From the NCBI GenBank assembly GCA_030753015.1, contig JASMDC010000044.1, forward strand, positions 1 through 29,941: 29,941 bases of DNA, in the 5' to 3' direction. This DNA is from Candidatus Undinarchaeales archaeon. GTDB taxonomy: Archaea; SpSt-1190; JASMDC01. A model generated the notes under the pieces. That model made no database searches. It was given only the letters and a program-made list of their open reading frames with translations, and was not told where the DNA came from. Positions 2,183-13,762 of this stretch are shown piece by piece. Both the position numbers and the translations under genes were made by a program. Every line of letters starts with the position of its first letter. Within the stretch, counting starts at the first letter, position 1.

Positions 2183-4057
2183 CTATGGGCGGCCCGGACA
2201 CGGCCCGCTTTGAGAGAGCCGGAGCAGTGCCCAGCCTGGGCCCATGGCGACCCTCTCGCCGCTGAGCAAAGGCCCGAGCGGTCCAACTTCGCCTGTGTCC
2301 ACGAGGTATACCGGTCGGGCCGAGCATACGAGAGAGGTGGCAGGGGAGAGATCTATCTCGTACCGGAGGTCCGAGGCGAGTATATGTTTCCGGTAGGAGA
2401 TGGCAGTACGCCCATCCCGCGCCATCACCACTTGGATGGCACGGGGGACTATGATGACCGCGTCCCTCTCGGTCCCGCGGATCGCCTGGGAGAGGGGGAG
2501 CTCTCCAGGACGTACGTCACCGAGTATGTGCTCAGACCCTGATTCGGAGATCACGAGCCCCATTAATTTGCCAGGCGTTCCGATCGCGTGTGAAGCCACT
2601 TCTTCTATATCGGCCGGGAGCAAGGGCGGACTGGAGAGGAGAGGGACCATCGCGCTCATCCCTCGCTCACGCTCTTCCACTAAGAACTTCAACCACGGTT
2701 CGTTAGATATTTCCAGGTACCGTGAATCCATCGGTGGTCTCCACAACAACGCGAGATTTGCGAACAGCATGAGCGCGCTGGCCACCATCACGACAACGAG
2801 GAACGCGAAGTACCGTTCGCCGCGCCGGGCACAGTTGATCCCATGGGCAGCGAGCAGAAGAACCGCGGGCATCAGCGGTTGCACATACCGGTTCTTGTTA
2901 ACACTCCAGTTCTCGTTGGCGGCCAGGAGGAGGAATGTCGGGAGGATCCAGAGAACGAGCAGGACGGCCTGTTCACGGTCCCGGCGACACAGGTCAGCGA
3001 GCCCGATCAGGGCAAGGGCGGACAGTACGGTACCCAGGGAACGGAGGATGAGCAAGGGGATGAACAGCGCCACGGGTGATGGGAATCCCGGTGTCCGGAC
3101 GATACGGTCGTGGAAAGGCCAGTTCAGCAATCCCATGAACATGAAGTCGCGTCCCAGGAATCGGTGGGTGAACATGTACTTGTCCCTGCCAAAGGTGAAC
3201 CGCATCGGATCGCACAGCTCCAGCTCCTTGTAGGCGGCAGGCTCGCAGAACAGGATGCAACCCTGGATGGGGTGGATGAACACGCTCCCGCATGCCTGCT
3301 GGTATACCAGCATCCACGGGAGGGCGGTCATGAGCCCACCGATGGAGAACAGCGCCAGCCGACGCCACCGATGAGGGCCTCGGCCGTACCGCCAGACGCA
3401 GGCGGGGAGCAGCAGCACCAATGGGTTGGACATCCCTGCTACGGCCCCCAGGGCGAGGCCTGCCGCAAGGGGTTCCCCCGAAGCTCGCCTGCGGTGGAGC
3501 ACGGCGAGGAGCACCGTCGCCCCGGCAAGTGTCACGACGTTGAGCACCTGGTCGGCGAAGAGGAGCACGCCTATCGGGTCCATGAACTCCTGCGGCGGTT
3601 GCACCGCCGAGTACAGGACCACGGCGTTCAGGCTCCCGAGCGCACCGAGCACAAGAGCGGACGGCGTCCCAGCACCCGCTCCCTCGGCAGCCACGAGGAG
3701 CGCCAGGAACACAACGCCGGAAGCGAGGGCGGCGACGAGGTAAATACCGTGCGTTGCCGTGAGCGAACCCGCAGCAGCGATCACGGTGGACGCTCCGATC
3801 TCGCGCGAGTGATGGTCATTCCCAAGGTCCATGCGTCGCTCGGGTGACGGTGGATCCTGATCGTTCGGGTCCAGGTCGATCAGCCGGCCGAGCATGCCTG
3901 CGGCGGCCTCTAGCGGTTCTGGCAATCGCTGAACGTACGAGAGCTTCACGTCCAGGGCCGCGACGTACATGGCGCCAATGACCACGAGCAGCGCCACCGC
4001 CGCCAGAGTGCGGGATGTTCCTTCCACGTCCTTGATGGATGCCTCCCATGACAACAC
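2183..4057 (-). CDS. Polytopic membrane protein, possible GT-C type glycosyltransferase
   Basis: A 624-residue protein with one N-terminal membrane helix (about residues 16-36), a long polar loop with Asp/His-rich sequence (about 37-90), then some nine further hydrophobic segments up to about residue 430, and a soluble C-terminal domain of about 190 residues. The architecture and the N-K-N-R-Y-V-Q-P-L-M-P stretch near residue 395 resemble lipid-linked-sugar-dependent GT-C glycosyltransferases (PMT/ArnT/AglB-like), but I see no decisive catalytic motif. A GTG start at 4057 is taken because AATTATAG at 4080-4087 (minus strand) is the right distance upstream; a GTG at 4027 is an alternative. It is divergent from the exported ferredoxin operon, with only 31 bases between starts. 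Confidence 0.65.
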   Translation of the reverse strand: MLSWEASIKDVEGTSRTLAAVALLVVIGAMYVAALDVKLSYVQRLPEPLEAAAGMLGRLIDLDPNDQDPPSPERRMDLGNDHHSREIGASTVIAAAGSLTATHGIYLVAALASGVVFLALLVAAEGAGAGTPSALVLGALGSLNAVVLYSAVQPPQEFMDPIGVLLFADQVLNVVTLAGATVLLAVLHRRRASGEPLAAGLALGAVAGMSNPLVLLLPACVWRYGRGPHRWRRLALFSIGGLMTALPWMLVYQQACGSVFIHPIQGCILFCEPAAYKELELCDPMRFTFGRDKYMFTHRFLGRDFMFMGLLNWPFHDRIVRTPGFPSPVALFIPLLILRSLGTVLSALALIGLADLCRRDREQAVLLVLWILPTFLLLAANENWSVNKNRYVQPLMPAVLLLAAHGINCARRGERYFAFLVVVMVASALMLFANLALLWRPPMDSRYLEISNEPWLKFLVEERERGMSAMVPLLSSPPLLPADIEEVASHAIGTPGKLMGLVISESGSEHILGDVRPGELPLSQAIRGTERDAVIIVPRAIQVVMARDGRTAISYRKHILASDLRYEIDLSPATSLVCSARPVYLVDTGEVGPLGPLLSGERVAMGPGWALLRLSQSGPCPGRP

Positions 4058-4088
4058 TTATATTTCTTCCAAGACCACTCTATAATTG
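4057..4088. promoter_or_regulatory. Interlocked divergent promoters
   Basis: The plus-strand TATA-like CTTATATTT (4057-4065) is about 27 bases before the plus ATG at 4089. The minus-strand ATTATA (4086-4081) is about 26 bases before the minus GTG at 4057. Each box therefore abuts or overlaps the other gene's start codon, and both transcripts would be leaderless. Confidence 0.5.
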
Positions 4089-4700
4089 ATGGAACGGCCC
4101 TCCAGGCGGGCGGTCCTCGCTGCGCTCCCACGCGCCGCTCTCGCCGCTTTCATTTTATCGGTAGGGTTAGCTCGAGCGGCCCGCGTACGCCGTTCCCTCG
4201 GGCTCGCACTACCAGAGCGCATCATCCGCCCACCCGGCGCGCTCCCCGATAAGCAGTTCAAGGCAGCGTGCGTGCGGTGCACGAGATGCGTGGACGTCTG
4301 CCCCACAAAGGCTATCGAGAAGGTGGGCATGGAGGGCTGGCCCGAGGAGTATGGCACGCCCCGGCTCGTCACCAAGTGCCTCTTCTGGGACGGGTGCACG
4401 CAATGCGTGGACGCCTGCCCCACGGACGCCCTCAGCCCCTTCGATCCGGACAAGGTGCGCCTGGCAATGGCGGAAGTCATCGAGTCGACCTGCATCGTCC
4501 ATCTGCAGGAGAAACAGTGCTTTGTATGCCAGGAGTTCTGTCCCTTCGATGCCGTGAAGACCGTGATCGCACCGGACAATGAACCTCCCTACGACAAGGT
4601 GCCCCAGATCTCGGCCACCGAGTGCACAGGGTGCTTCTTCTGCCATGAGGTGTGCCCGACGGATCCCAAGTCCATCAAGATGAGCCCGGTGATGCCATGA
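4089..4700 (+). CDS. Tat-exported multi-cluster 4Fe-4S ferredoxin (NapG/MauM-like)
   Basis: A 203-residue protein. A twin-arginine signal (SRRAVLAAL, then a hydrophobic stretch to about residue 30) predicts export of the folded protein. It is followed by four Cys clusters: CVRCTRCVDVCP (about 60-71), a CxxxxCxxCxxxCP cluster (about 95-108), a CxxCxxxCP cluster around residues 140-147, and CTGCFFCHEVCP (about 178-189). NapG/MauM proteins of this type work with NapH-like membrane proteins, and one is encoded on the other strand at 978-2150. The ATG at 4089 is preferred over the TTG at 4086 on promoter spacing. Its TGA overlaps the next gene's ATG (ATGA at 4697-4700), so the two are translationally coupled. 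Confidence 0.85.
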   Translation: MERPSRRAVLAALPRAALAAFILSVGLARAARVRRSLGLALPERIIRPPGALPDKQFKAACVRCTRCVDVCPTKAIEKVGMEGWPEEYGTPRLVTKCLFWDGCTQCVDACPTDALSPFDPDKVRLAMAEVIESTCIVHLQEKQCFVCQEFCPFDAVKTVIAPDNEPPYDKVPQISATECTGCFFCHEVCPTDPKSIKMSPVMP

Positions 4701-5647
4701 CCCGGGACGACGAGAACGATCGCCCCGAGAAGGCTGCGGAGGCCCTCGAGTCGCTCAGTGCACGAAAACTCTCCCGTCGCGCCATGGTGCGAGCGTTCCT
4801 CCTGGGTGGACTGGGTGCCCTGGGGGTTTGGCACATGAGCCGGCCGGGCGAACTGCCACTGGACGTCGTGCGACGCGCGACACGGGACATGCCGTCCTGC
4901 AAGGTAACGGCCGAAGGGGTTCGGGAGTGGACCTCGCAGGAAGAGCTTATCGCTGGGCTCAGGAAGGGGCTCGACGGGATAGGTGGTATCCGTTCTATCG
5001 TCCCCAACGGCTCGACGGTCTTCATCAAGCCCAACCTCGTCCGCCACGACAACCAGTTCGATCCTCGGGTGGTCCCGGCCCTGGTCCAGCTCATCGAGGA
5101 GGCGGGGGCCGAGCGCGTGTTCGTGGGGGACAACGCACCGGCGCCTACGCGCTACACGGCGGACAGTATCGGCCTTCTGCGCCATCTACGCCAGACCGAC
5201 GCCGAGTTCGTAGAGGTGGAGCGCGGTACGTTCTCCATGGTGGATATCCCACATGGTGTGGCCGTCAAGGAAGCCCCCATGCCCAACCAGATGCTCGATG
5301 CGGACGTGCTTGTGAACGTGGCGTTCTTCAAGAAGCACCCTCACTACAAGGTGAATTATAGCCTCGCCCTCAAGAACCTCATGGGACTGGTCAGGTTCCA
5401 GGACATCGTCCACCTCGTCCATCCCGTGCTCGAGGACGGTATCTCTGACCTCGTATCGACGTTGACGCCCCAGCTGAATATCGTCGATATGCTCGGGACG
5501 CCCGCAAAAACAGTCGTCATGGGCACCCACCCCGCCGTGGTCGACCGAGTGGCCATGGACCTCTATGGGGAGAAGGACATACCCATCTATCTCCAGCGCG
5601 CGTTCGCGCGTTTCTCCGAGGTGCTCGCAGAATGCGACGGATCGTGA
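4697..5647 (+). CDS. Tat-exported DUF362 family protein
   Basis: A 316-residue protein starting at the ATG that overlaps the ferredoxin stop; a longer frame upstream lies inside the ferredoxin gene. It has a cytoplasmic charged leader, then a twin-arginine signal (SRRAMVRAFLLGGLGALG, about 29-46), then a full DUF362 domain: FIKPNLV (about 113-119), VFVGDNAP, LVNVAFFKKHPHYKVN, SLALKNLMGLV and a late HPAVVDRVAMDLYG. The biochemical role of DUF362 is not established; the family is often fused to or encoded beside ferredoxins. Here the domain has almost no Cys of its own, so any Fe-S clusters would be supplied by the coupled ferredoxin. It overlaps the lipoprotein gene by 16 bases. Confidence 0.8.
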   Translation: MTRDDENDRPEKAAEALESLSARKLSRRAMVRAFLLGGLGALGVWHMSRPGELPLDVVRRATRDMPSCKVTAEGVREWTSQEELIAGLRKGLDGIGGIRSIVPNGSTVFIKPNLVRHDNQFDPRVVPALVQLIEEAGAERVFVGDNAPAPTRYTADSIGLLRHLRQTDAEFVEVERGTFSMVDIPHGVAVKEAPMPNQMLDADVLVNVAFFKKHPHYKVNYSLALKNLMGLVRFQDIVHLVHPVLEDGISDLVSTLTPQLNIVDMLGTPAKTVVMGTHPAVVDRVAMDLYGEKDIPIYLQRAFARFSEVLAECDGS

Positions 5648-7431
5648 ACGGACAGCCCGCCACTTTCCTGTTGCTCGCCATCCTCCTCGCGGGCTGTTCC
5701 TCTACACCTCAGCCCTCCGGAGCCGATCCCACGGCCACCGCCACAATCGTTCCCTCACCGACGTCACTCCCCTCCCCCCGAGCATGGAAATGCGAGGGGC
5801 TCAGCTCTGGCGTGGACCGCTCCATATGCCTCCTCGCCATGGCCAGGTCACGTGCCCACACGGGTGGCACGTGGGCCGTTAGCCTGTGCGAGGCGCTAAC
5901 CATCGAACCCTTCCGCAAGGAGTGCGTCGATCAGGTGCTCCCCGCCACCCCGCCCTGGAGCGCTCCCGTTCTCCAGCGGCTGTGCGCGCTCGACGAGTCC
6001 CGAGAGGGATGTACTGCGCTGGCAGAGGCCAGGGCGACCGGGGACCCGTCCCGATGCCCGTCCCTGGACACGCATATCGGCAGGGGTTGTGTGATGACCG
6101 TGGCAAGGGAACTGGCGATGGCGGGCGACCAGCGAGCGGGCGCAGCGTGCACCGTGTTCGAGGATCCCTTCTTCGTCGCCCGTTGCGCACGAGCCGCGGC
6201 TCGTGCCGCTGTACCGGACCACCCTGAACTGGCCCGGCAGGTCTGTGCCCCGGTCCTCGATGCAATCTTTCACTTCCACTGCATTCAAGGGGCCGCGCTG
6301 CTCGCAGGCTCGACCGACGCGGTACAAGCACTGTGCGACGACGTCAATTTCACAGTCTCGCACACCAGATGTCTCATAGACGCTCTCGCTCGCACGCGGC
6401 TGGCAATCCACACGAACGTGAGCATCCCCGTGTGCCGCTTGTCACCGGAGTGGGAGTCGAAGTGCACCGCTGACGTCGCCACCCGGGTAGCCGTCGAGGA
6501 CCACGACCCGGTCGCTGACCTGTGCGCCGGGCTGGAGGATGGCGCGGACTGCGCAGTGGCCGTCGTACGGGTCATCGGCCGCACCGACCTCGAGGCCGCC
6601 ACGGCCCTGTGCGACCGCTTCGCCACGGGGACCTTCGTCCATGACAACTGTATCGCTGCTGCTGTCTCATCGTCCCCCTGCACCGATCCCGCGTTATGCG
6701 CGGACGCGTGCGCTGGTGCATCCACGCCAGTCGAGCGTGACGGCTGCCTGCTCTCCATCATGGTCCGGGTCGAGCCGAACGCATGGCAGGACGTCTGCAA
6801 AAGGGCCGAATCGGAGGTGACACGGCAGGTGTGCACGGCGGCATCCGGAGTGGTGGCGGGCGATGATGGCGCGACCACCTGCGGCGGCCTCCCGGACCGA
6901 AGGGACCGGGAGGCGTGCTTCGGGATCATCGTACCGAACATCGCTCCCGACGGCCTCGCACTTCTGGCGGACGCTTGTGCTGCATTGGACCCTCCCTCCC
7001 CCGCGTGCCTAACGGCCATTGCCACCGAGAGAGCGCGCCGCCGCTTGCCCGAACCCGCCGCCCCCTGCCTCTCGCTCCAGGAGACCGCTGCCCGGGACTC
7101 CTGCCTCCTCGAATCGTTCGCCGAGACCATCGGTCACGATGTCACTGCAGCGCGTGCGATGTGCGATCTGTGCGGTGACGGACCGGAGCACGACATGTGC
7201 ATGGCCGCGGCCGTAGCTGCCGACCTAGCTCCCGAGGCCCTGCCCGTGGCCCTGGACGTCTGCGATGGCCTCGAGCTCTCGGAAGAAACGGACAGCTGCA
7301 GGTTCGGGGTGGCGCGCGCTCTTGCTGCCAACGATCCCGTGATGGCGGCCGAGGTGTGCGAGCACGTCATCAGTGTGTTCTGGCGGGACAAGTGCTCCAC
7401 GGTCGCCGCGGACCATCGAGAGAGTGACTGA
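5632..7431 (+). CDS. Cys-rich repeat lipoprotein, unknown family
   Basis: A 599-residue protein with a signal peptide ending in a lipobox (LLAGC, Cys at about residue 22), then a Ser/Thr/Pro-rich linker to about residue 50. The rest, some 540 residues, is made of helical-looking units, each with a Cys pair. I count 40 cysteines including the lipobox, arranged as 18 C-x(8-12)-C pairs, mostly with 11 residues between them, separated by Ala-rich stretches. Examples are CTVFEDPFFVARC, CKRAESEVTRQVC and CEHVISVFWRDKC. Most likely it is an alpha-solenoid on the outer face of the membrane with one disulphide per unit. It lacks CxxC ferredoxin and CxxCH haem motifs. It is the last gene of the exported-ferredoxin/DUF362 operon, so a link to extracytoplasmic redox chemistry is plausible. 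Confidence 0.8.
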   Translation: MRRIVNGQPATFLLLAILLAGCSSTPQPSGADPTATATIVPSPTSLPSPRAWKCEGLSSGVDRSICLLAMARSRAHTGGTWAVSLCEALTIEPFRKECVDQVLPATPPWSAPVLQRLCALDESREGCTALAEARATGDPSRCPSLDTHIGRGCVMTVARELAMAGDQRAGAACTVFEDPFFVARCARAAARAAVPDHPELARQVCAPVLDAIFHFHCIQGAALLAGSTDAVQALCDDVNFTVSHTRCLIDALARTRLAIHTNVSIPVCRLSPEWESKCTADVATRVAVEDHDPVADLCAGLEDGADCAVAVVRVIGRTDLEAATALCDRFATGTFVHDNCIAAAVSSSPCTDPALCADACAGASTPVERDGCLLSIMVRVEPNAWQDVCKRAESEVTRQVCTAASGVVAGDDGATTCGGLPDRRDREACFGIIVPNIAPDGLALLADACAALDPPSPACLTAIATERARRRLPEPAAPCLSLQETAARDSCLLESFAETIGHDVTAARAMCDLCGDGPEHDMCMAAAVAADLAPEALPVALDVCDGLELSEETDSCRFGVARALAANDPVMAAEVCEHVISVFWRDKCSTVAADHRESD

Positions 7432-7444
7432 GAATAAGAGTGGA

Positions 7445-7519
7445 TGGGGCCGCCCGGATTTGAACCGGGGTCGCGGGCTCCCAAAGCCCGAAGGATGGAC
7501 CAAACTACCCAACGGCCCC
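7445..7519 (-). tRNA. tRNA-Pro (anticodon UGG)
   Basis: It folds as a complete cloverleaf on the minus strand: acceptor GGGGCCG paired with CGGCCCC and discriminator A; anticodon stem CGGGC/GCCCG around the loop TTTGGGA (anticodon TGG); T stem CCCGG/CCGGG around TTCAAAT. No CCA is encoded (the next bases are TCC) and there is no intron. It lies six bases after the tRNA-Gln gene and probably shares its transcript. Confidence 0.93.
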
Positions 7520-7525
7520 AAAGAT

Positions 7526-7632
7526 TGGTAGCCCCGCCCGGAATCCCGCGCCCCGTCAAATCTGGCGGGACGGTTCGAACCAGGGTCAGCGGCTCCAAAG
7601 GCCGCCATGATTGGCCGCTACACCACGGGGCT
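7526..7632 (-). tRNA. tRNA-Gln (anticodon UUG) with a 31-nt insertion in the T loop
   Basis: On the minus strand the acceptor AGCCCCG (7632-7626) pairs with CGGGGCT (7536-7530), followed by discriminator A and an encoded CCA (7528-7526). The anticodon stem GCGGC/GCCGC encloses CTTTGGA (anticodon TTG). The T stem CCTGG/CCGGG is split: after GGTTCGAA come 31 extra bases before T and CCGGG. Removing them gives a normal 73-base tRNA (plus CCA) with T loop TTCGAAT. Inside the insertion GTCCCGC pairs with GCGGGAT. This suggests an archaeal intron at about position 59/60; the exact boundaries are ambiguous by one or two bases. Confidence 0.85.
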
Positions 7633-7652
7633 GGCGGAGGAGAGTAGGGTTG

Positions 7653-7663
7653 CTTATTTAAAG
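7653..7663. promoter_or_regulatory. Shared TATA-like box between tRNA-Gln and nfeD
   Basis: CTTATTTAAAG is about 26 bases before the tRNA-Gln 5' end on the minus strand and about 30 bases before the nfeD ATG (7688) on the plus strand. No second AT-rich box is visible in the 55-base interval, so one near-symmetric element probably serves both directions. Confidence 0.55.
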
Positions 7664-7687
7664 CTTGTTCCATTCATCCATCCGACC

Positions 7688-8353
7688 ATGGGAAGGATGC
7701 ATTTTGTACTTCTTTTGTGTATTCTGTTCGCCCCCGCCATTGCTGTGGACTGTTCTGTGCTCACCGGCCAGGACGCTTGCCGTGATGCGCGGTGCGTGTG
7801 GGTGAACAATACCTGCGCTACGTGCAACGACCTGACCGAGAGCGGGTGCACTCTCGCCAGTGACGCCTGCACGTGGGACAAGGGCGCATGCACGCCCCAA
7901 CCCCCCTTGGACGCCACCCTTACATGGGTGATCCTTGGAGCAGTGTTCCTGGTACTGGAGATCTTCACACCGGGGATCTTCTTCATCCTGTTCGGGGTGT
8001 CGTCGTTCATCGTGGCGGCAGCCGTGGGTATCGGCTTGATCAGCGGCACTGCCCTTGGCGTACAGACACTTGTATTCCTACTGACCTCTATCGTGCTCCT
8101 CGCTTTCGTGCGACCCATGTTCAACGTCGTCACTGTTGACACTGGCGAGCGCTTTGGTGTAGAGGCCTTCGTGGGGAAGGTGGGCACCGTCACCGAGGAT
8201 ATCGAGCCCGAGGGTGACAAGGGAAAGGTAAAGGTAACAGGAGAGGAGTGGCGGGCCGATGCCGACATGCCCCTGGAGAAGGGGACCAAGGTCGAAGTCA
8301 TCGAGCTGAAGTCCAACACCCTCATCGTGAAGGTATATGAAAAGGAGGAATGA
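7688..8353 (+). CDS. Short NfeD-like membrane protein with Cys-rich ectodomain
   Basis: A 221-residue protein. A signal peptide (residues 1 to about 20, ending FAPAIAVDC) is followed by a 55-residue ectodomain with eight Cys, including two copies of C-x-W-x(4)-C (CVWVNNTC and CTWDKGAC). Then come three or four membrane segments (about 78-145, containing LEIFTPGIFFILFG) and a C-terminal NfeD OB-fold domain with G-K-V-G and G-x-W motifs (GEEWRADAD). It lacks the ClpP-like serine protease domain of long NfeD proteins. The ATG at 7688 is placed by the TATA box; a longer frame upstream runs into the tRNA. It is coupled to the stomatin gene that follows, the usual NfeD/stomatin membrane-organising pair. 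Confidence 0.85.
   Translation: MGRMHFVLLLCILFAPAIAVDCSVLTGQDACRDARCVWVNNTCATCNDLTESGCTLASDACTWDKGACTPQPPLDATLTWVILGAVFLVLEIFTPGIFFILFGVSSFIVAAAVGIGLISGTALGVQTLVFLLTSIVLLAFVRPMFNVVTVDTGERFGVEAFVGKVGTVTEDIEPEGDKGKVKVTGEEWRADADMPLEKGTKVEVIELKSNTLIVKVYEKEE
8342..8348 (+). promoter_or_regulatory. Shine-Dalgarno site of the stomatin gene
   Basis: AAGGAGG lies eight bases before the ATG at 8357, inside the last codons of nfeD, and indicates translation from a shared mRNA. Confidence 0.7.
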
Positions 8354-8356
8354 GAT

Positions 8357-9265
8357 ATGGTTGATCTATTGACCGCAATAGTGCTCTTAGTGATTATCGT
8401 TGCCATCATAGGCACGAAGGCCTTGAAGATCGTGAAACCCTACGAGAAGGCGCTCATCGAGCGGATGGGCCGGTACCAGTATACGGCCGGGTCCGGTCTG
8501 ACGACAATCATCCCCTTCGTAGACACGATCAAGAAGGTGGACATGCGTGAGACGGTCGTCGACGTTCCACCTCAGGACGTTATCACCAAGGACAACGTGG
8601 TGGTCACGGTCGATGCGGTAGTGTACTACCAGGTCACCGAACCCAAGGCAGTGGTGTACAACGTCGGGCAGTTCAACCTCGCCTGTACCAAGCTGGCACA
8701 GACCAACCTGAGGAACATCATCGGCGACCTCGAACTGGACCAGACGCTGACCAGTCGCGAGCGTATCAACACGAGCCTTCGCGCAATCCTGGACGAGGCC
8801 ACTGACAAGTGGGGCGTCAAGGTCAACCGCGTGGAGATCCAGAAGATCGACCCGCCCGCCGACGTCACCGAGGCCATGCACAAGCAGATGAAGGCCGAGC
8901 GAGAGAAGCGCGCTGCCATCCTCGAGGCCGACGGCCAGAAGCAGTCCCGCATCCTCGAGGCAGAGGGTCAGAAGGAAGCGCAGATCCGCCGGGCAGAAGG
9001 TGAGGCCGAGGCCATCAAGCAGGTGGCGCTCGCTGAGCGCGACAAGTTCATCTACGAGGCACAGGGTAAGGCACAGGCACTGGCAACGGTGTTCGCCGCT
9101 ATCAAGCAGGCGCAGGTGGACAAGGACATCCTCTCTATCCAGTACCTCGATACCCTGCGCACGGCCCTGGCAACGAACTCCAAGTTCGTCATCATGCCCC
9201 TGGAGTTCTCAGAGCTCCTCAAGGGCCTGAAGGGCATGGGCGGTACCGGCGAGCTGCTCAAGTAG
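8357..9265 (+). CDS. Stomatin/prohibitin (SPFH) family protein
   Basis: A 302-residue protein with one N-terminal membrane helix (about residues 3-20), the SPFH domain (about 24-190, with VKPYEKALIERMGRY, the PPQDVITKDNVVVTVDAVVYY stretch of stomatins near 72-92, and SLRAILDEATDKWGVKVNRVEI near 140-160) and an Ala/Glu-rich coiled coil (about 170-240) that mediates oligomerisation. Stomatins organise membrane microdomains and are partners of NfeD proteins. The gene follows nfeD after three bases with a good ribosome binding site. Length and order are typical, with no anomalies. A GC-rich hairpin follows the stop. Confidence 0.93.
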   Translation: MVDLLTAIVLLVIIVAIIGTKALKIVKPYEKALIERMGRYQYTAGSGLTTIIPFVDTIKKVDMRETVVDVPPQDVITKDNVVVTVDAVVYYQVTEPKAVVYNVGQFNLACTKLAQTNLRNIIGDLELDQTLTSRERINTSLRAILDEATDKWGVKVNRVEIQKIDPPADVTEAMHKQMKAEREKRAAILEADGQKQSRILEAEGQKEAQIRRAEGEAEAIKQVALAERDKFIYEAQGKAQALATVFAAIKQAQVDKDILSIQYLDTLRTALATNSKFVIMPLEFSELLKGLKGMGGTGELLK

Positions 9266-9277
9266 AAATACGAGCAC

Positions 9278-9305
9278 GCCCCCTCCTCTTCTCGGGGGAG
9301 GGGGC
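9278..9305. terminator. GC-rich hairpin between convergent genes
   Basis: GCCCCCTCC at 9278-9286 pairs with GGAGGGGGC at 9297-9305 around a 10-base loop. It lies 12 bases after the stomatin stop and before the end of a convergent pseudogene. No long T run follows, so a termination role is only probable. Confidence 0.4.
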
Positions 9306-9347
9306 CAGTACTCATTCTCACTCCAGGATTCTTGATATGCTGGCTTT

Positions 9348-10102
9348 TCAGAGGAGTCCCTTGTCGTGGCTCTCATAATAGTCGACGAGCCCCGTGATGA
9401 GAGGGGACGTACGGATCGAGTGACCACGCTTCATTGCACACTTGAGGTCGCGGGCCATTACTGAGAGTTCGTTGTCCAGTACCGCCCGACCACCGAGGTC
9501 CTCCTCGAGGCGATGGTGGTGCTTGGCGGCCCCCCTCACGACCACATGCAGTCGACGTAGCTCCTCCACGTAGTTGCGATAGGGTACGAGGGCGGGAGTG
9601 TCGGCAAGACGAAGCCCCTCAGCGAGCGCATCGATGCCATCCGCGGCCGCGGGAAGGACCGACCTGTCCCCGTCCTTGATTGTCGTCACGAACGCGGAGA
9701 GGACCGTGTTCAAGATGGCCAGGAACTCTTCCTTGGTCTCCGGGATGCCCCGGTAGTAGAGGTGGGCTTGGAATATCCCGAAGCCCATGAAGAAAGGTGC
9801 GACCATACATACACCATCGAAGAGCTCTCCCCAGTCGATCCCTACCTCGCTCATCTCATCGAATTGTGCGAACAAGATGACCGGGCCGGTCAGTAGGATT
9901 AGCGCGGCCGCCGCGCCGACGGTCCCCCCATCGGCGAACACGTAGAAGTGCTCATGTAGAACTGCTGACTCAGACGGAGGTTAGATCTAATATCACTCCA
10001 TCGACCTTTCTCCTCGAGATCCATCAATCCCTCGGAGATGGTGATCGTGGCTCCACGAACGAGGGCGAACCTATGCTTCCCGATATACCCTTTATTCTTC
10101 AC
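9348..10102 (-). pseudogene. Degenerate third copy of the tandem membrane-protein family
   Basis: The N-terminal part (GTG at 10102, VKNKGYIGKHRFALV...) aligns with the start of the gene at 10140-11501 (MREHGRIGKDAFDLL). After about 45 codons it jumps to the region equivalent to RKQFYVLADGG, so some 230 codons are missing. At the join the frame is broken: TTCTAC occurs twice, 14 bases apart (9956-9961 and 9942-9947 on the minus strand). Removing 14 bases restores Q-Q-F-Y-V-F-A-D-G-G and leads in frame into the remaining 197 residues. These carry two membrane helices and the family's C-terminal domain (GLRLAD, MARDLKCAM, IRTSPLITGLV). A GTG at 9941 could in principle start that fragment, but I see no ribosome site. 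Confidence 0.7.
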
Positions 10103-10139
10103 GGCCCCTCCCCCACACACTCGTCCAGTTCGACGTTCG

Positions 10140-11501
10140 TTAGTCCTCTTTCTCGATATGTGCCAGCATCGCCCTCAACTTGGGCGACACCCTGACGCTC
10201 TGCCCGCTCTCGAGGACGGTCTTCAGGTCCTTGGCCATGACGATCAGCTCGCGCTTCAGCTGGCGAGGATCCTCGAACTTTGGCTCCAGCTTGTAGTAGT
10301 GCTCGGCTGTGCGCTGAACGATGTCCTCCAGAAGGCAGAGGTTGTCCATGTACCCGTGATAGGCCATGAGCTCAGGATCCATGGCGATGCGCAGCCCGTC
10401 GGTGAGGTCGTCCAGGTCCGCACCGGCCTGCTCCAGTGCTGCACGGTCGTCTTCCTTTATCGCCTTGGCCATGTTTACGATGATCGTGTCCCGGAGGTGG
10501 GCGAACTGCATCAGGTTGGTGGGGGCCATTATGTAGTCCAGCTGTGCGTAGTAGGCCCCCAGTGCTATGAGCATGGGAGCTATCATGGACACGCGGTCCT
10601 GGACTGCCCCCCATTTCGAGGTCGACTCGGCGGTGAGGGGGATGAGCACTGCAGTCAGTAGGACGACCACCACGGCACCGAGCGCGCCACCATCAGCGAG
10701 CACGTAGAACTGCTTCCGGGCGTATTTGTACAGGAGCCATGATGCCAGAATACAGACCGCGATGATCGTGAGGCCGTTGTCGTGCACGGTGACGGGGATG
10801 AGGAGCCCGATCAGAGCGAGGATGTTCCATATGCCCCGATAGACTATGAAGAGGATGAACGAGAGTGTGAGCATCTCGGCGGGAGGGTCGTACACGGAGG
10901 GGACCGAGGCCTGGAGGACCCATCCCATGGCCAGGAACGCGACTACGTAGTACGCGCTCACGAGCCAGCCCAGCCAGCCCCCTGGCGCTCCCGTGCCCGT
11001 GCGCACCTCGATTGCGACGGCAAGGACGAGCAGGCTGAGCACAACGGCAGCTCCGCGGGTATCGAGCAGCGGTGTTTCCCGGGGCGTCACCTCGATCGGG
11101 TAGGTGACCACCTCCTCGGCCCGCTGATCGGCCGTGACATAATTGGGTCCGTCCTCGAACAGCTGCACACCTCGGTAGTAAAGGGATTTCTTTCCCTGGA
11201 AGGCGATGCGCAGCACGTGCTGACCCTCCCCACTCCCCTCGTGGCACGTGGCGGGCTCCTCCCTCCAGCCCCGGAAGTACCGTACCTCCTCCTCTGACCA
11301 GAGGAGCTTGTCCGGGAGCTTGTCGGAGGGGAACCAGAGCGTGATATCGCCGTAACGCTCCTCCACGTACGCCGTCCTCCCCCGGTAGCTTATGATGTTC
11401 CAGATCCAGCCGGACATATCGTCCTTGGGATTGTTGGTTACACTGACCTTTCCCGAAAGGAGGTCGAACGCGTCCTTCCCGATCCGTCCGTGTTCACGCA
11501 T
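10140..11501 (-). CDS. Six-helix membrane protein, unknown paralogous family (copy 2)
   Basis: A 453-residue protein. Residues 1-145 form a soluble domain rich in beta-type sequence, including a Tyr-Tyr/Phe stretch (LYYRGVQLFEDGPNY) shared with its neighbour. Six membrane segments follow (about 155-345). Between helices 4 and 5 lies the shared motif RKQFYVLADGGALGA. The C-terminal 110 residues are cytoplasmic-looking and helical, with the most conserved stretch of the family: DGLRIAMDPEL, YMDNLCLLEDIV, MAKDLKTVLESG and SVRVSPKLRAML. I do not know this family. The gene follows its paralogue after 15 bases with a GAGGAG ribosome site, and precedes the degenerate copy. Confidence 0.8.
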   Translation of the reverse strand: MREHGRIGKDAFDLLSGKVSVTNNPKDDMSGWIWNIISYRGRTAYVEERYGDITLWFPSDKLPDKLLWSEEEVRYFRGWREEPATCHEGSGEGQHVLRIAFQGKKSLYYRGVQLFEDGPNYVTADQRAEEVVTYPIEVTPRETPLLDTRGAAVVLSLLVLAVAIEVRTGTGAPGGWLGWLVSAYYVVAFLAMGWVLQASVPSVYDPPAEMLTLSFILFIVYRGIWNILALIGLLIPVTVHDNGLTIIAVCILASWLLYKYARKQFYVLADGGALGAVVVVLLTAVLIPLTAESTSKWGAVQDRVSMIAPMLIALGAYYAQLDYIMAPTNLMQFAHLRDTIIVNMAKAIKEDDRAALEQAGADLDDLTDGLRIAMDPELMAYHGYMDNLCLLEDIVQRTAEHYYKLEPKFEDPRQLKRELIVMAKDLKTVLESGQSVRVSPKLRAMLAHIEKED

Positions 11502-11516
11502 GGTGCTTTCTCCTCG

Positions 11517-12929
11517 TCAGTCCGCTTCAGTGTCCGCGTGCTCCACAAGGCCCCGCAGGATCGGGGACACCCGGATGCACATGCCCTGCTCCATGGCGTA
11601 GCGCAGGTCGTGGGTCATGATCTGGATCTCGCGAGCGAGGTCGGCGGGATCGTCGAAGTCCCGCTCGAGCCGGTCGTACTGCTCGGCCGCGCCCTTCACG
11701 ACGTTCTCGAGCAGGCGGAGGTTGTCCATGTAATTACGGAACGCGGCCAGGTTGGGGTCCTTTGCGATGCGCAGGCCGTCGGCCAGGTCGTTGAGCTCCT
11801 CGCCCGCCTCCCGCAGCGCCTCCCGGTCGCCGCTGCTGACCGTCCGGTCCATGAGCGTCGCGATCTCGTCGCGGAGCCGGAAGAACTGTTTTTCCGTGTC
11901 GGGCGCCTTGCGGTAGTCCTTCCACTTGTAATAAGCGCCGACGACGATGATGAAGGGCGCGAGCATGGATATGGTGTTCAGCGCCTCGTGCCACCACTCG
12001 AGGTCCTCCTCGATGGCGACGTTCCAGATGAAGGCGAGTATCAGGACGAGCAGCGCTCCTGCGGAACCGCCGTCGGTGAGCATGTAGAAGCGCTTGCGGA
12101 TAATGCGGAACATGAGGAACGAGAGCACAATCGATGCTGCGATGAGCGAGAACCCGAAGTGCTCGATGGGCAATAGGAACTCCTTACTGAGCGCAGAGAA
12201 TATGTTCTCCACGCCCTTGAAACCTATATAGAGCACGAACGAGCAGGCGAGGATCTCGGCGGGGATGTCGTAGTCGGTGGGGGTGCCTGCGATGAGCACG
12301 TAACCCATGGACACGAAGCACATCATGTACCACAAGGCCACCAGCACTTGTGTCCATCCGGGAAGCGCTCCCGCTCCTGCCTGGAGCTCGAGCCAGAGGG
12401 CGACAAGGGCGATCCCCAGTATCATGAGCGCGCCCCATGTCCCCACGAGCACCGCCTTCCGGGCCAGCACCTCGATAGTGTAGTGGTCCAGGTCCTCGGC
12501 GCGGGCATGGGCGGTGGCGTAGTTCTCCCCGTGCTCGAACAGCTGCACTCCTGTGAAGTAGAGGGGCTTGCGGTCGGGGAACACGATGCGGAGAACGTCC
12601 TCGCCGTCCCCCTCCCCCTCCGAGCAAGCGGCGGTGCCATCCTCCTCCCCGCCGGTCCTCATCTTCCGTGGATCCCAGAGGCCCTCCAGACGGCCGGAGA
12701 GGTCACGCACTGCCTCCTCGCGCCATGCGACGTGGGCAGGCAATCGTTCGACCGGGGTCCAGACGGTCAGCTCGCCTTTGTACTCCTCGACGAACACCGT
12801 CTTCCGGTCCCACTCGATAGCGGTCCAGCCCCAGCTCTCTTGGTCCTCTCCTTCCCCCTCGGTCAGGGTGATGGAACCGTCGGGGACGATTGTGTACCGT
12901 TTCCGATTGATCTGACCCTGTTCATTCAC
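11517..12929 (-). CDS. Six-helix membrane protein, unknown paralogous family (copy 1)
   Basis: A 470-residue protein with the same layout as its neighbour: an N-terminal soluble domain with a longer acidic insertion (around residues 95-115, Gly/Glu-rich), LYFTGVQLFEHGENYATA, six membrane helices, RKRFYMLTDGGSAGA, and a C-terminal domain with DGLRIAKDPNL, NYMDNLRLLENVV and IRVSPILRGLVEH. A longer open frame exists upstream, but the start is set at GTG 12929. There VNEQGQINRKRY aligns with the N-terminus of the neighbour, and the codon overlaps the upstream stop as GTGA. This gives a compact operon with the nucleoside phosphorylase gene. Function unknown; the conserved C-terminal domain is the best handle for a remote-homology search. 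Confidence 0.8.
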   Translation of the reverse strand: MNEQGQINRKRYTIVPDGSITLTEGEGEDQESWGWTAIEWDRKTVFVEEYKGELTVWTPVERLPAHVAWREEAVRDLSGRLEGLWDPRKMRTGGEEDGTAACSEGEGDGEDVLRIVFPDRKPLYFTGVQLFEHGENYATAHARAEDLDHYTIEVLARKAVLVGTWGALMILGIALVALWLELQAGAGALPGWTQVLVALWYMMCFVSMGYVLIAGTPTDYDIPAEILACSFVLYIGFKGVENIFSALSKEFLLPIEHFGFSLIAASIVLSFLMFRIIRKRFYMLTDGGSAGALLVLILAFIWNVAIEEDLEWWHEALNTISMLAPFIIVVGAYYKWKDYRKAPDTEKQFFRLRDEIATLMDRTVSSGDREALREAGEELNDLADGLRIAKDPNLAAFRNYMDNLRLLENVVKGAAEQYDRLERDFDDPADLAREIQIMTHDLRYAMEQGMCIRVSPILRGLVEHADTEAD

Positions 12930-13762
12930 GTCCGAAGCCCCGGGTACCAGTACCTCTTCCCGCTCTTCTCCTTCTCGTCGTCCATCTCCTTGAGGATGCG
13001 CACGGCCTCCACGGCCACCTTCGCGCACTCCTTTTCGCCCGTGACCTTCAGTTCGTCGCGAGGACGGTTGGCGAACACGGTGCACACGCAGCCTGCACGC
13101 AGCCCGAAGAGGCTTGTGAGGGTGTAGAGCGCGGCGGCCTCCATCTCGAAGTTGAGCACGCGGGCCTTCTGGAGATCAACGACCAGGTTGTCCATCCAGC
13201 TCTGCCAGAACCCGTTGTACCCGGGCCTTCCCTGGCCGCAGTAGAAGGTGTTCGTGGACGCCGTGATCCCCACATGGTAGGGGATGTTCAGGCATTCTGC
13301 GGCCTGGATGAGGGCCAGTGTCACCTCGTACGACCCGACGGCGGGGTACTCTGGCCGCACGTAGTCCTTGCTCGTCCCCTCGAGACGGACCGCAGCCGAA
13401 GTGATGATCATGTCACCGATGTCGATGTCCTCCTGGATGGTCGCCGTGGAGCCCACGCGGATGAACGTGTCCACACCGACAGCTGCCAGTTCCTCGATGG
13501 CCACGCCCAGGGGGCTGGGGCCCAGACCCGACGATACGGTAGAGACGGGGATGCCCTTGAACTTGCCGGTGAAGGTGCGGTACTCGCGGTGGTAGGCCAC
13601 TTCACGCGCCTCGTCGAAGAGCTCGGCGATGACCGGTACCCGCCCGGGGTCCCCGGGAAAGAGTACGTACCGCGCGACGTCGCCCGGTTTGCACTGGATA
13701 TGATACTGGATGCCCTCCTCGGTCTGCGGCCGGGTGGCCTCCTTCATCTTGAGCGTGCCCAT
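12926..13762 (-). CDS. udp: Uridine phosphorylase-like nucleoside phosphorylase
   Basis: A 278-residue member of the PNP/UDP hexameric family, which splits nucleosides with phosphate in the cytoplasm. Visible motifs are FPGDPGRV near residue 36 (phosphate binding), SSGLGPSPLGVAIEEL, RVGSTATIQEDIDIGDMII, ITASTNTFYCGQG and FEMEAAALYTL (the ribose-binding Glu-Met-Glu). The pattern fits uridine phosphorylase better than purine phosphorylases, but specificity is inferred. The start is the ATG at 13762, about 26 bases downstream of the TATA-like TTTATAAAA; a longer frame to 13834 runs through this promoter. It leads the operon containing the tandem membrane paralogues. Confidence 0.88.
   Translation of the reverse strand: MGTLKMKEATRPQTEEGIQYHIQCKPGDVARYVLFPGDPGRVPVIAELFDEAREVAYHREYRTFTGKFKGIPVSTVSSGLGPSPLGVAIEELAAVGVDTFIRVGSTATIQEDIDIGDMIITSAAVRLEGTSKDYVRPEYPAVGSYEVTLALIQAAECLNIPYHVGITASTNTFYCGQGRPGYNGFWQSWMDNLVVDLQKARVLNFEMEAAALYTLTSLFGLRAGCVCTVFANRPRDELKVTGEKECAKVAVEAVRILKEMDDEKEKSGKRYWYPGLRT

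Follow-up and report, generated by a model that had tools for sequence, protein, structure and literature searches.

Organization of the locus

The locus studied here lies in a contig of 29,941 nucleotides (JASMDC010000044.1, hereafter the window) from a Candidatus Undinarchaeales archaeon, and consists of three plus-strand genes at 4089–7431 that encode a ferredoxin, a protein of the DUF362 family and a cysteine-rich lipoprotein, together with a membrane polyferredoxin gene on the minus strand. The window corresponds to contig 56 in a metagenome bin of 3.85 Mb, from which its archaeal assignment is taken, and this bin was the sole member of its family within the genome collection searched. 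The locus is a real exported redox operon whose parts are known, and their combination is new in archaea and was met once in Bacteroidota.

The first gene (4089–4700, with an ATG at 4089) encodes a NapG/MauM-like ferredoxin bearing a twin-arginine translocation (Tat) signal, the second (4697–5647, most likely starting from the ATG at 4697) encodes the DUF362 protein, which is of the Tat-exported type and has no iron–sulfur (Fe-S) cluster of its own, and the third (5632–7431) encodes the lipoprotein. The three genes are coupled, and all of their reading frames are intact. The ferredoxin stop and the DUF362 start overlap in the four bases ATGA, indicating translational coupling, and the DUF362 and lipoprotein frames share 16 bases. 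The third-position GC content of the three genes was 0.77–0.79, compared to 0.79–0.86 for the SMC and CTP synthase (pyrG) genes used as controls in the window; as this coding signature is that of the two controls, we regarded the three genes as real, in agreement with the coordinates and overlaps of the initial annotation.

A divergent promoter region (4058–4088) serves both directions. TTATAT is found 31 bases upstream of the ATG at 4089 and TTATAG 28 bases upstream of the GTG at 4057, and these probably represent archaeal TATA boxes with leaderless starts. On the minus strand, the promoter is followed by a gene for a 624-aa membrane protein with multiple transmembrane segments (2183–4057; glycosyltransferase-like by eye, with no family above cut-off), and 32 bases behind it by the napH-like gene (978–2153; start at 2150 with ATG or at 2153 with GTG). 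The napH-like gene had been placed directly across the promoter, but it is in fact the second gene from it. TatC is encoded in the genome of this archaeon, and no terminal reductase was recognized among the open reading frames listed for the window.

The ferredoxin and the membrane polyferredoxin resemble NapGH

The ferredoxin carries the twin-arginine motif RPSRRAVLA followed by a hydrophobic stretch, from which Tat export is predicted, and its 16 cysteines form four 4Fe-4S clusters, as had been proposed. It matched TIGR00397 (NapG/MauM) with 80.8 bits (E 1e-22) over nearly its whole length. In full-length alignment, all 16 cysteines were in register with those of Escherichia coli NapG and archaeal NapG, and the RPPGA motif was retained. 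A NapG is further recognized by its place beside napH and a terminal reductase; here, the napH-like gene is two genes off and on the opposite strand.

The NapH-like protein has 31 cysteines and comprises four N-terminal 4Fe-4S motifs, four predicted transmembrane helices, two CX3CP motifs and two C-terminal 4Fe-4S motifs. The NapH core (four helices, two CX3CP motifs and two C-terminal clusters) is thus retained, and the additional N-terminal domain with four 4Fe-4S motifs resembles MvhB/VhuB polyferredoxins. Judged by these sequence features, the ferredoxin and the NapH-like protein are a NapGH-type electron module of a known kind, here without NapA.

NapGH modules serve several exported reductases (PMC4585668, PMC5449189): NapGH feeds NapA, and a NapGH-like module also serves the tetrachloroethene (PCE) dehalogenase of Sulfurospirillum multivorans (PMC4585668). 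Quinol oxidation by NapGH itself is disputed, and a maturation role has been argued (PMC6195509). NapGH being a described module, the claim of the initial annotation that no described system has this set of parts was not upheld. The locus shares with NapGH the four-cluster Tat ferredoxin with RPPGA and the membrane partner with four helices, CX3CP motifs and two clusters, and differs in the missing NapA, the placement of the genes on opposite strands and the four additional clusters that the NapH-like protein carries at its N-terminus; DUF362 and the lipoprotein stand in the place of the reductase. The S. multivorans system likewise has a NapGH-like module wired to a further exported enzyme, but there the terminal enzyme, a corrinoid Fe-S dehalogenase, is not a DUF362 protein.

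The DUF362 protein is related to LarA

DUF362 is a widespread domain for which, to our knowledge, no function is known. The protein of the window carries LSRRAMVRAFLLGG and has a predicted Tat-type signal, and it matched PF04015 with 92.7 bits (gathering cut-off 24), which bears out its description as an exported DUF362 protein. The match was limited to positions 1–165 of the 200 in PF04015, and the GxGPxxG segment was absent in the alignment.

A structure model built from a 24-sequence alignment reached a predicted template modelling score of 0.77. In both structure searches, the top matches were LarA-type lactate/malate racemases (Z 16–18.6 over about 207 residues), followed by the next fold at Z 5.9; the best LarA match had a Z of 18.6 over 207 residues with a root-mean-square deviation of 3.0. 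The DUF362 core is therefore predicted from the model to adopt the fold of the LarA N-terminal domain (N-domain). The kinship as such was already known, as DUF362 and DUF2088/LarA belong to one Pfam clan (PMC11770544). Comparison of DUF362 with LarA by hhalign gave a probability of 91–93% (E 5e-8 to 8.5e-7), and the three invariant residues of DUF362 (His, Lys and His, in 31 of the 31 proteins compared) were aligned to LarA His174, Lys184 and His200, which are the catalytic histidine, the tether of the cofactor and the nickel ligand of the nickel-pincer nucleotide (NPN), respectively. No published statement of this alignment was found in the literature searched. When the full DUF362 alignment was compared as a profile with solved structures, its ferredoxin tails dominated the result.

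In the window protein, these residues are His214, Lys226 and His239, spaced by 12 and 13 residues instead of 10 and 15. LarA Arg75, His108 and the C-terminal domain had no counterpart in the DUF362 alignment, where the protein stops after the N-domain, indicating that DUF362 is not a LarA. The predicted core fold and the positions of His174, Lys184 and His200 are thus common to both, but the DUF362 protein of the window is exported and paired with Fe-S proteins.

The lipoprotein is probably a disulphide-stapled scaffold

The lipoprotein has its lipobox, LLAGC, at residue 22, and its cysteines number exactly 40, as the initial annotation stated; the 39 cysteines after that of the lipobox are part of a chain of helical hairpin repeats. 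Cysteine makes up 6.8% of the mature protein, with one CXXC only. The spacing between cysteines alternates between 9–13 and 15–21 residues, giving 31 alternating gap pairs compared to a maximum of 12 in 20,000 shuffles. A single-sequence model, weak to moderate in confidence (predicted local distance difference test score of 60), shows consecutive helical hairpins in which 35 of the 39 cysteines are at predicted helices, and it matched only generic helical repeats. Family searches gave no match and no strong relative. The genome encodes weak paralogues (contigs 44 and 78), which have non-redox neighbours and two of which adjoin a GyrA-like gene, and other exported proteins of this genome are also very rich in cysteine (several with 35–64 cysteines). 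The simplest reading of the modelled repeats is a disulphide-stapled helical solenoid that would act as a scaffold, and a redox role of the cysteines found no support.

Distribution of the gene set and a counterpart in Parabacteroides distasonis

NapG-like proteins (E 1e-18) were found in 7 of 394 archaeal genomes, including that of the window. Five of the other six genomes belong to one genus and have a NapA-type reductase together with NapG and NapH, and the sixth has a larger molybdenum (Mo) enzyme; archaeal operons of a Mo reductase with NapG and NapH were thus seen in one genus and one further genome. The full cluster was absent from the other archaea sampled. When the DUF362 protein of the window was used alone as query, no relative was found in the genome collection, and 50 DUF362 loci were retrieved with a three-sequence alignment as query. 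Searches of viral contigs returned nothing.

At 22 of the 50 loci, and in six of the nine copies in the genome of the window, DUF362 is fused to a dicluster ferredoxin, which suggests that an Fe-S partnership is usual for this domain. These fusions have the identical domain with an Fe-S partner, but they are single chains with no evident export signal, and the DUF362 protein of the window is exported and has a separate four-cluster partner. On contig 77 of the same genome (6504–9110 of its locus), there is also an 869-aa protein whose central DUF362 domain is flanked by predicted membrane segments.

A counterpart was found in the plasmid collection. In P. distasonis, a Tat DUF362 protein (MKRRDFLKTS) is followed, after a gap of 6 bp, by a NapH-NapG fusion with five transmembrane segments and an internal SRRTF, a second Tat motif, ahead of the fifth; the pair stands without a reductase. 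Accordingly, the search for the same cluster in other genomes, which the initial annotation had suggested, found none in the other archaea or at the 50 DUF362 loci, but it did find a Tat DUF362 protein with NapHG in this bacterium. NapH-NapG fusions have been described as dual Sec-Tat proteins, with DUF362 unmentioned (PMC5449189). The P. distasonis fusion has the same domains as the ferredoxin and NapH-like protein of the window, and adjoins a Tat DUF362 protein whose Lys-to-His spacing of 13 is that of the window protein; it differs in being one chain, in having no lipoprotein and in lacking the N-terminal four-cluster domain. As this pair also occurs in P. distasonis, the pairing of DUF362 with NapGH is recurrent. 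In a tree, a group of the two DUF362 proteins was unsupported (66/67), both being long branches.

Two further NapH-NapG fusions of P. distasonis flank two Tat-exported 4Fe-4S aldo/keto reductases (4998–10995 of the locus). Since such fusions also adjoin Tat aldo/keto reductases, DUF362 fills the slot of an exported oxidoreductase.

Proposed electron pathway and alternative explanations

We propose that the locus encodes an archaeal NapGH-type electron module whose dedicated partner is an exported DUF362 protein, and we put the probability of this reading at roughly one half. Electrons would enter the NapH-like protein on its cytoplasmic side, from a ferredoxin or polyferredoxin donor, or else from the quinone pool; a ferredoxin-level donor inside would be favoured because of the extra N-terminal clusters. 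They would cross the membrane through the NapH-like protein to the exported NapG-like ferredoxin, which would bind the exported DUF362 protein and pass electrons to it or, in reverse, take them from it. DUF362, with its LarA-type active-site fold, would be the oxidoreductase proper, and the lipoprotein may be a membrane-tethered stapled solenoid that keeps the soluble parts at the membrane.

However, several observations weigh against this proposal. A DUF362 gene was found beside a NapG-like gene in none of the six other archaeal genomes (394 searched), no NapG-like gene adjoins DUF362 at any of the 50 loci retrieved from named genomes, and the P. distasonis pair is the single clear counterpart, with no second DUF362-NapGH pair at five other places of the plasmid collection that had DUF362- or NapHG-type matches. 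Exported bacterial DUF362 proteins of another clade have no Fe-S neighbours and adjoin squalene-cyclase-like genes. The DUF362 protein of the window stands alone on a long branch, its C-terminus is shortened and there is an indel at the conserved motif, so that it may have lost its activity. The napH-like gene belongs to a different transcription unit than the other three genes. Finally, both module proteins scored below the curated cut-offs and were filed only as like their families: the ferredoxin lies under the TIGR00397 cut-off of 178.85, as do the archaeal NapG proteins linked to Mo reductases (77–90 bits), and the NapH-like protein reached 65 bits compared to 213 for TIGR02163 (NapH/MauN).

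It is possible, though rather unlikely, that the genes encode an ordinary NapGH quinol dehydrogenase for a Mo reductase encoded elsewhere, with DUF362 and the lipoprotein as accessory or maturation factors. NapGH does feed NapA and other exported reductases (PMC4585668), a maturation role of NapGH has been argued (PMC6195509), and contig 62 encodes two Tat-type molybdopterin enzymes, one beside a MenA-like prenyltransferase gene. These enzymes are nevertheless on a different contig and the window has no reductase gene, translation of DUF362 is coupled to that of the ferredoxin, and the Parabacteroides pair occurs without a reductase. We consider it more doubtful still that the grouping arose by chance or is specific to this lineage without joint function, a decaying DUF362 copy beside a NapGH-like module. 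The absence of the cluster from every other archaeon sampled and the long branch and shortened C-terminus of DUF362 would fit such an origin, but the overlapping genes, intact frames, coding signature, conserved His, Lys and His residues and Parabacteroides pair all speak against it.

An extracellular thiol/disulphide system, in which electrons reach the 40-Cys lipoprotein and its disulphides serve as substrate or as redox buffer, is very improbable. The operon position and cysteine content of the lipoprotein are in its favour, but the regular spacing indicates helix-to-helix staples, nearly all cysteines are at predicted helices with a single CXXC, the weak paralogues have no redox neighbours, and richness in cysteine is common to many exported proteins of the genome. 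Of the path in the initial annotation, from the cytoplasm through the membrane to an external acceptor or to disulphides, the export-side relay with a NapH-like partner is supported by the NapG alignment and the P. distasonis set, but the branch to disulphides is not supported, given the stapled-solenoid spacing and the non-redox context of the paralogues.

DUF362 proteins and the nickel-pincer nucleotide

The interest of the locus is in what can be learned from it about DUF362: together with the Parabacteroides counterpart, it puts an exported DUF362 protein at the oxidoreductase position of NapGH modules, and the model links the domain to LarA, which gives a concrete lead on its function. 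The genome of the window encodes a LarA homologue, a LarE-like PP-loop protein (called by eye) and LarC, the last as two half-length genes on separate contigs (95 and 36), of which the second adjoins the LarE-like gene. Tat export carries folded proteins with their cofactors already in place, and the export of DUF362 by this route fits, but does not prove, a bound cofactor.

Of 48 genomes with DUF362, 27 had LarC, compared to 5 of the 20 in which a first look gave no DUF362 candidate (p 0.017, one-sided, with genome size as a confounder); LarC was not found in the other 21 DUF362 genomes, including most Omnitrophota with DUF362. NPN as cofactor of the whole DUF362 family was thereby weakened and cannot be claimed. 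Among the exported forms, the LarC excess (6 of 7) was not significant (p 0.10).

In a previous study, about 15% of the genomes analysed, many of them from cyanobacteria, had no LarA and yet make the nickel-pincer cofactor, for users that are unidentified (PMC11796402). Two of our control genomes, Synechococcus elongatus and Haloferax volcanii, had DUF362 and LarC with no LarA match. The question of DUF362 thus becomes testable in laboratory strains. We speculate, as a decidedly improbable suggestion, that DUF362 might be one of the missing non-LarA users of NPN, a LarA-fold domain that would hold the cofactor through the invariant Lys and His, act on hydroxy or keto compounds by net hydride chemistry and exchange the electrons with 4Fe-4S clusters; the proteins of the window and of Parabacteroides would be exported, NapGH-wired versions.

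Other observations

The exported Tat DUF362 clade (support 99/99) comprises sequences of Melainabacteria, Chloroflexota, Planctomycetota, Nitrospirota and Nitrospinota, with a gene of 290–360 aa just upstream. This upstream gene matched squalene-hopene cyclase domains in four of six cases (one below and one barely over the curated cut-off) and had no Pfam match in the other two. No description of the conserved squalene-cyclase-like/DUF362 pair was found. Elsewhere in the window, three adjacent and similar membrane proteins on the minus strand (9348–13085) share the C-terminal motifs DGLRIA and DNL and are apparently a tandem family, and the gene at 7607–8353 encodes an NfeD-like protein with a Cys-rich stretch ahead of its membrane helices.

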